From contig JAGRCC010000199.1 in the NCBI GenBank assembly GCA_020433785.1, positions 1-9,198 on the forward strand: 9,198 bases of DNA, read 5' to 3'. A program made the translations under genes and the position numbers. This DNA is from Anaerolineae bacterium (lineage in GTDB: Bacteria; Chloroflexota; Anaerolineae; 4572-78; J111). Positions within the stretch are counted from its first letter, which is position 1, and each line of letters starts with the position of its first letter. Shown here in pieces: positions 7,966-9,198 of the stretch. The notes beneath the pieces are model-generated. The model saw only the letters and a program-made list of their open reading frames with translations. It made no database searches and was not told where the DNA came from.

Positions 7966-8068
7966 GGAGCCGTCAAAGCAGAACGTTGACCTGACAAAGC
8001 AAGCTTTGTCGCTCCATAAGAAGTTCGTAGTAATCGCTTTAGTGATGTCGTCCCTAAAGGAGTTACTA
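7966..8068 (-). ncRNA. Structured 3' region of the DCC gene: two-part hairpin plus three-way junction (candidate)
   Basis: Two consecutive foldable units precede the terminator on the - strand. (1) 8028-8068: TAGTAA/TTACTA (6 bp), a symmetric 3x3 internal loop, then CTTTAG/CTAAAG (6 bp) closing an 11-nt loop; the outer stem includes the stop codon. (2) 7966-8015: GGAGC/GCTCC closes a compact three-way junction whose arms are 7972-7976 with 7986-7990 (GTCAA/TTGAC) and 7993-8000 with 8003-8010 (GACAAAGC/GCTTTGTC). Linkers are only 0-2 nt. No tRNA features or known riboswitch motif are visible. It may be a structured 3' UTR, an sRNA released from it, or chance. Confidence 0.4.
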
Positions 8069-8452
8069 GGAATCGGATTTGGTAAACATGAATTTGCTAA
8101 AGAAACCGCGATTATTGGCCACAAGGCGATAGCCCAGCTCGGTAAACCAGACCAGCGGCGGCGAGATCATGGGGCGAACCAGCCAGCGAGGATAGCCAAT
8201 GGTTTCCAAAATAAACATGCTAGCCCGACCGGCTTGTAACACTTCACCATTGGCTTTGATCACATGAATCGCCTGCTCGCACTCCTGGCGTAGCTGCGGC
8301 GTCATCGGTGGAGAGGGGCAATCCTGATAAGGTATGATATAAAATTCAGCTTGTAAATCTTGCCGTCTGACCCAGACGGATGTCCGTTGTCAGAAGCCTC
8401 AGTCACCGTCCCAGAGGAGCCAGTGCTGATGGGGTTTGATGTTGGTTGGCAT
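8066..8452 (-). CDS. DCC-family (DUF393/COG3011) thiol-disulfide oxidoreductase, predicted selenoprotein with U-x-x-U active site
   Basis: 128 codons before the TAG at 8066-8068, start ATG 8452 with TAGGA (8459-8463) 6 nt upstream. The frame contains exactly two TGA codons, 8399-8401 and 8390-8392. They occupy the two catalytic positions of the family motif D-G-(D/E)-C-x-F-C: the sequence reads LLWDGD-U18-GF-U21-QRTSVWV. The rest matches the family along its whole length: RRQD, FYIIPYQD (37-44), ECEQAIHVI...GEVLQAGRAS (57-78), and the ending ELGYRLVANNRGFF. A stop-avoiding call would begin at the internal ATG 8305 and lose the active site. A SECIS-like hairpin follows the second TGA. Three neighbouring genes end in TGA, so a changed genetic code is unlikely. 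The inferred product is a thioredoxin-fold-type redox protein with a possible diselenide. The alternative is a pseudogene, but two nonsense changes falling only on the active-site cysteines would be a striking coincidence. Confidence 0.82.
8363..8379 (-). promoter_or_regulatory. SECIS-like stem-loop after the second in-frame TGA
   Basis: On the mRNA strand, CCGUCUG and CAGACGG form a perfect 7-bp stem around a GGU loop (8370-8372). The stem starts 11 nt after the second UGA and the GGU starts at nucleotide 18. Bacterial SECIS elements, such as that of E. coli fdhF, lie within the coding region just after UGA, with an apical loop exposing GGUC at almost the same distance, and are bound by SelB. 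The same hairpin is 20 nt after the first UGA, still within a plausible reach. GGCUU before and AAGCU after could add a short lower stem. Confidence 0.72.
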
Positions 8453-8482
8453 TTTCAATCCTATCGAATATGTGGGTTGTGG

Positions 8483-8535: not shown

Positions 8536-9198
8536 CTATTCAAACCCAATCTCCGTCATCAGTTCCGGGGTGGATTTTTGCAAAATATAGCAATTGCGCC
8601 GATCGCCGTTGGTCACCGTCGAGACAAAATCGACGGCAATGTACCCTTTGGCAAAGTACGTTTCAAACGCCTGCCGAATTTTGAGACGCCAGTCAAGCGC
8701 GAGCGCCATGTCGGCGTTTTTAACCGGGTGGATATCCGGCACGCTTTCGAGTTCGAGGAAATCGGCCGTTAAATCCCCATCGGCATGGCTGATTTTTTTA
8801 TCAACGCCCTGGCCGATAACCGTAAATATGGGCGTGCCATCCTGATAATCCAAACCCTTATCTATCTCCTGCCGGGGGCCGCTGACCCACCACTCGACCA
8901 GAAGCCGGTCTGAGGGGAGGCCGGCATTGAGCGTCCCGAAGTTGCTGCCGTAGTAATCCTCGATGTAGGTGCGACTGATGGCTCGAAGTTTGTGCAGATT
9001 CAAATTGGCATTCGGTCCTTCAAGGGGATCGTAGGTCCAGGTGATGAGGGGGAGGTTTTGAGCAATGGTACGGTGGCGCTGTTCCTGTTTGAGGGCCTCG
9101 GCCACACCATGGCGGCGCCACTCGGGGAGTACGCCCATATTTTGGGAACAAAGTTTAAACAGCCCGCTCTTTTCGCGGCCAATAAAGCTAAACAGAAA
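8536..9198 (-). CDS. GNAT-superfamily acetyltransferase, COG3375-like (5' end cut by window end)
   Basis: The frame is open from the window edge (9198) to the TAG at 8536-8538, giving 220 visible residues. The ATG at 9138 is internal, because the upstream residues (FIGREKSGLFKL) continue the family alignment. Acetyl-CoA-binding motif A is clear: MGVLPEWRRHGVAEALK. It is followed by the strings typical of this uncharacterised group: ITWTYDPLEGPNANLNLHKLRA, an I-x-x-YYGSNFGTLNAG block, and LPSDRLLVEWWVSGP. GNAT enzymes transfer an acyl group from acyl-CoA to an amine or related group; the substrate of this group is not known to me. It lies 83 bp upstream of the predicted DCC selenoprotein gene on the same strand with no terminator between them, so co-transcription is possible. 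The family call is strong, and the partial N-terminus prevents a start call. Confidence 0.87.
   Translation of the reverse strand, partial: FLFSFIGREKSGLFKLCSQNMGVLPEWRRHGVAEALKQEQRHRTIAQNLPLITWTYDPLEGPNANLNLHKLRAISRTYIEDYYGSNFGTLNAGLPSDRLLVEWWVSGPRQEIDKGLDYQDGTPIFTVIGQGVDKKISHADGDLTADFLELESVPDIHPVKNADMALALDWRLKIRQAFETYFAKGYIAVDFVSTVTNGDRRNCYILQKSTPELMTEIGFE

Follow-up and report, generated by a model that had tools for sequence, protein, structure and literature searches.

The window, a stretch of 9,198 nucleotides from contig JAGRCC010000199.1 of an Anaerolineae bacterium, carries on its reverse strand a gene of 128 codons (8066..8452) that is predicted to encode a selenoprotein of the DCC/DUF393 family (PF04134). 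The gene opens with an ATG (8452-8450), is preceded at a spacing of six bases by the Shine-Dalgarno-like sequence AGGA (8459..8462), and closes with a TAG (8068-8066). The frame is interrupted by two in-frame TGA codons, at codon 18 (8399..8401) and codon 21 (8390..8392), and by no other stop. The first-pass annotation had described this frame, its two interruptions and its Shine-Dalgarno sequence, and re-deriving the coordinates showed them to be correct. What the standard code leaves of the gene is a 79-residue open reading frame that begins at Met50 (8066..8305). Directly upstream lies a second reverse-strand gene (8536..9138), which is GNAT-acetyltransferase-like solely by virtue of a sub-threshold Pfam match of its homologue at locus L001. 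Homologues of this neighbour also lie directly upstream of the gene with two TGAs (hereafter the UxxU gene, U standing for the residue at each TGA) at loci L001 and L059, and at L001 the two genes overlap in TAATG, which combines the stop of the upstream homologue with the start codon of the UxxU gene. No tRNA was found in the window, and comparison of the window with Rfam returned three weak matches, none of them close to the DCC/DUF393 gene.

With cysteine placed at both TGA sites, residues 12-116 of the read-through protein match PF04134 with an E-value of 5.8e-14 and a score of 53.7 bits against a cut-off of 27.8, in agreement with the earlier description of a full-length DUF393/DCC protein. 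At E ≤ 0.001 the window protein matched nothing in Pfam besides PF04134, and thus no peroxiredoxin-type domain. The position of the C-x-x-C redox motif is kept, with TGA as the codon for its first and its second cysteine; both TGAs had been said to fall on the cysteines of a D-G-D-C-x-F-C motif, and in the alignment they indeed coincide with those of D-G-D-C-G-F-C in homologues. Identity to the window protein is 50-56% for the full-length Cys proteins that score highest (P0004, P0006, P0007, P0009, P0011, and P0012). A first search of 5.8 billion proteins with the window protein returned 63 homologues, comprising 33 with CxxC, one with WxxW, and 29 of 77-92 residues that lack the motif. A search with the protein of locus L047 (genome G482) returned 115, of which 52 have CxxC and 63 (67-139 residues) are without the motif. 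The structure alignment covered 54 of the 63 homologues together with the L001 and window proteins. Neither a sequence search of the PDB nor a Foldseek search against the PDB at E ≤ 0.001 returned a match.

Genes with the same TGA pair were found in other genomes. Scanning genomes at one per species revealed L001, from an Anaerolineae bacterium (genome G001), with both TGAs in place. In a draw of 396 genomes of the class centred on G001, 17 matched at E ≤ 1e-15; five of these have two TGAs and 12 have no stop, and all five two-TGA genomes belong to a single order (5 of its 25 genomes). A draw of 400 genomes of the phylum yielded six matches at E ≤ 1e-20, three with two TGAs (G001 again, G684, and G482) and three without a stop. 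A single-TGA form was absent from the genome matches of both draws, and the viral contigs searched contained no relative. The resulting set of eight UxxU genes consists of the window gene and those of seven other assemblies (L001, L012, L013, L014, L015, L046, and L047), and every one of the eight carries both TGAs and no other stop. The first-pass annotation had pointed to Cys and Sec homologues as the informative comparison, and both kinds are present: CxxC proteins that align at both TGAs, and seven further assemblies with the same pair. It had also named other nonsense changes in close relatives as evidence against its reading; among the genome matches there are none, and the same two TGAs alone occur.

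The residues around the predicted Sec pair drift among these genes, reading WDGAUSLU at L013 and WDGGURFU at L015; most aligned Cys forms keep DGDCGFC. A third cysteine of the window protein, at codon 45 (8318-8320), precedes the stretch P-S-P-P-M. Cysteine precedes this stretch, or variants of it, in six of the eight UxxU genes and in none of the 32 CxxC database proteins that have it, and is also found in all four truncated or W-read database proteins that reach it. Cys45 may act as a third redox residue, or it may mark a lineage.

Downstream of the second TGA we identified a predicted bSECIS hairpin (8363..8379, reverse strand), in which a 7-bp stem pairs 8379-8373 with 8369-8363 around a GGU loop (8372-8370). 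The same hairpin can alternatively be drawn with a 6-bp stem and the loop GGGUC, and the spacing to this GGGUC loop is 16 nt from the second UGA and 25 nt from the first. The bacterial SECIS model in the available text of PMC13188914 has a UGA-to-loop range of 16-37 nt, and the G-GGU-C loop and both spacings fit that model as it is given there. Folded by itself, the window RNA is predicted to adopt a minimum-energy structure that differs from the conserved stem; preference was given to the structure derived from the alignment.

The alignment of the eight UxxU genes is gap-free from the first TGA onwards, and the stem corresponds to columns 23-29 paired with columns 33-39. Given the eight sequences with no structure supplied, RNAalifold returned exactly this 7-bp stem. 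Across the eight genes 94.6% of stem cells are paired and double changes occur at four of the seven pairs; the outermost pair is unpaired in three genes. None of 500 shuffles reached the observed pairing or covariation score, a test that is inflated by the relatedness of the rows. When the stem partner was slid by one to three columns, pairing was 16-46%, and the slide of +3 still had three pairs with double changes. In the Cys genes (seven tested, of 14 Cys loci) the stem was not found, and 36.7% of stem cells are paired. A covariance model built from the eight UxxU genes scored 56-71 bits on those eight, which are its training set and hence not independent. Over the rest of the 170,762 bases scanned (some counted twice) its score never exceeded 9.6 bits; on the nearest Cys gene, L048, it was 9.0 bits.

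Synonymous codon choice points the same way. When codons were re-drawn synonymously according to window codon usage, the observed pairing was reached in 0.2-0.9% of re-draws for the five genes with all seven pairs, in 4.5-4.6% for the three genes with six of seven, and in 97-100% for two Cys genes. The stem contains an Arg codon, following Val-Trp-Val, that is AGA or AGG in all seven UxxU genes having Arg at this place; outside the stem, the Arg codons of the same eight genes are 4 AGR versus 92 CGN, and AGR accounts for 3 of 143 Arg codons in the seven other genes of the window. Judged from these counts, codon choice is bent to the stem.

That the two UGAs share one hairpin at unequal distances could be taken to mean that only one of them is decoded as Sec, the other being suppressed by a near-cognate tRNA or terminating most ribosomes, such that the protein would be mostly mixed or truncated. 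We regard this as improbable. Both distances to the loop lie inside the range given in the available text of PMC13188914, both TGAs are kept in all eight genes, and no genome match has a single stop, although shortened database proteins cannot separate UxxU from UxxC or CxxU.

A decayed gene or a sequencing error would make the TGAs nonsense changes, and would leave the gene dead or expressed only as the 79-residue piece from the internal ATG. An open reading frame does begin at Met50, and many such C-terminal pieces populate the databases. One of these, P0088 (86 residues), matches the C-terminal end of the product of the UxxU gene L047 with 100% identity and comes from a contig that equals that of L047 in length (133,984 bases), and thus demonstrates database shortening of such a gene; other short database homologues may be short for different reasons. 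The 79-residue piece, however, lacks the redox motif and, in the predicted structure model, the initial strand and helix. Among the UxxU genes compared, base differences before the first TGA number 41, 19, and 102 at codon positions one, two, and three; this concentration at third positions is the pattern of coding sequence. The recurrence of the same pair, with no other stop, in seven assemblies besides the window and the covarying stem downstream further indicate that the TGA pair is more than chance. We therefore give very little credence to decay or error. Three further database proteins, P0141, P0146, and P0158, are DCC pieces of 77-85 residues, and the longest contigs that carry them measure 417-791 kb. 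Given contigs of this length, the three are probably not cut by contig ends, and they may represent additional hidden Sec genes.

A quickly built tree comprised 76 rows (38 CxxC, 29 truncated, and 9 UxxU, with P0064 and eight of the 14 Cys loci left out). In it, a clade of 34 rows (SH-aLRT 96) gathers all 29 truncated rows and five UxxU rows and includes none of the 38 CxxC rows. The remaining four of the nine UxxU rows fall outside this clade: L014 and L015 lie elsewhere and are weakly placed, and L046 and L047 group close to L048, a Cys form (support 87). Many forks of the tree are open, which leaves it compatible with one or with several UxxU origins.

The machinery for selenocysteine is present in related genomes, in patchy sets. 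SelA scores above its cut-off in 315 of the 396 genomes of the class. Its presence consequently discriminates little, and selenocysteine use is probably usual in the class. SelB and tRNA-SeC (by ARAGORN) were surveyed in five genomes (G001, G212, G144, G313, and G319), and each was over cut-off or called in three of the five. G212 has SelA and SelB over cut-off, a tRNA-SeC(tca) called by ARAGORN, and a SelD with one TGA. SelA, SelB, and tRNA-SeC(tca) are present in G001, with no SelD over cut-off, and G144 has SelA and SelB over cut-off and likewise no SelD over cut-off. A tRNA-SeC(tca) was called by ARAGORN in G313, which also has a SelD with TGA, and in G319 the SelD is in two pieces with one TGA; neither genome has a SelA match or a SelB over cut-off. 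SelA was the only Sec gene sought in G482, where it was found, and in G684, where all matches were below cut-off. The patchiness of these sets may reflect incomplete assemblies. Only tRNA-Sec genes called by ARAGORN were counted, because matches above the cut-off of the Rfam tRNA-Sec model also occur in 5 of 14 control genomes. The Rfam match in G319 scores 56.7 bits, and ARAGORN calls no tRNA in that stretch. At loci L066 and L064, the over-cut-off Rfam match of G144 is a tRNA-Ser (cga) by ARAGORN, and the G319 match is 126 bases long with an apparent internal duplication.

SelD itself is over cut-off in 14 of 17 genomes and has one TGA in each (including the two-piece SelD of G319). At all nine SelD loci examined (L028-L033 and L054-L056) the TGA stands in C-A-G-U-A-S-K, the site at which SelD proteins carry Cys or Sec. 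At several SelD loci, visual inspection allows a hairpin with a G-U-U loop to be drawn downstream. With this TGA and a drawable hairpin in SelD, recoding of UGA is to be expected in the group. A changed genetic code, in which TGA would stand for an ordinary amino acid such as Trp, is scarcely credible: it would accommodate the WxxW database protein P0002, which has Trp at both places, the two TGAs apparently having been read as Trp, but the seven other open reading frames of the window taken as genes contain no internal TGA and 76 TGG and three of them terminate at TGA, so that TGA does not serve as a general sense codon in this DNA, and the SelD genes of related bacteria place TGA precisely at the C-A-G-U-A-S-K site.

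We thus consider it very likely that the gene encodes a full-length protein of the DCC/DUF393 thiol-disulfide oxidoreductase family in which both residues of the C-x-x-C motif are selenocysteine (U18 and U21). This reading, already proposed in the first-pass annotation, is supported by Cys homologues at both TGAs, by TGA homologues elsewhere, by a covarying bSECIS-like hairpin that has no counterpart in seven Cys genes, and by the patchy Sec genes of related bacteria. Selenium insertion, a shared SECIS, and a redox function are predictions that follow from it.

In the mechanism that we propose, a single bacterial SECIS hairpin would serve both UGAs in turn. SelB with its Sec-tRNA would stay bound to the intact hairpin during the reading of UGA18, at 25 nt from UGA to loop; nine nucleotides later the same hairpin would serve UGA21, at 16 nt. 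Translation would go on to the TAG once the hairpin has unwound. The product would adopt a thioredoxin-like fold and, in keeping with the predicted model, carry U18-x-x-U21 where the first helix begins. This pair would alternate between a diselenide and two selenolates and reduce a substrate. Cys45 would perhaps assist the redox cycle in the lineage that has it.

It further seems fairly probable that these genes constitute a selenoprotein family of DCC type in the Chloroflexota that is undescribed in the literature searched, in which the catalytic cysteines are swapped for Sec pairwise and, among our matches, never singly, in which one short SECIS decodes two UGAs nine bases apart, and which possesses a dedicated diselenide redox centre. 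If true, a selenoprotein family would be added that ordinary gene calling hides, many of its database homologues starting after the TGAs. With UxxU and Cys forms both in existence, and single-Sec forms missing from the matches, a paired switch from Cys to Sec becomes testable. Testable, too, are the service of one SECIS to two UGAs nine bases apart and the role of a diselenide versus a disulfide.

A Sec form of DCC/DUF393/YuxK was not found in the literature searched, whose scope did not extend to subscription papers, preprints, and supplementary files. In the parts of the texts available, DCC is not mentioned in PMC13188914 (2026), PMC12013277 (2025), PMC9312934 (2022), or PMC2398784 (2008), and the first three also do not mention DUF393, YuxK, or PF04134. 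NCBIfam 20.0 has no family for the window protein, the L001 protein, one truncated protein, or the upstream gene, and for P0002 it gave one match (E 0.21), far under its cut-off. The UxxU motif is known in bacteria; what appears to be new, as far as these partial texts extend, is a selenoprotein in the DCC family, which we did not find described as such.

Among known systems, the bacterial UxxU selenoproteins listed in the available text of PMC13188914 are a Prx-like thiol:disulfide oxidoreductase (PF00578), a metal-binding protein (NF041115), and FmdB (TIGR02605). Like the window protein these have Sec as U-x-x-U, but their domains differ from its PF04134 domain. The Cys forms of DCC/DUF393, which bear YuxK-type names, share with the window protein the same domain over nearly the whole length and the same motif position. 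Unlike the UxxU genes, they keep C-x-x-C, and the seven tested lack the hairpin. The Sec-type SelD of the same bacteria also has an in-frame TGA, but it has one Sec and is a different protein. The motif of SelL is UxxU, and animal SelL uses a SECIS in the 3'-UTR. According to the accessible portions of the respective papers, SelL of aquatic animals and marine bacteria has a diselenide bond (PMC2397514) and is Prx-like (PMC2398784). SelL thus described differs from the window protein, whose domain is that of the DCC family.
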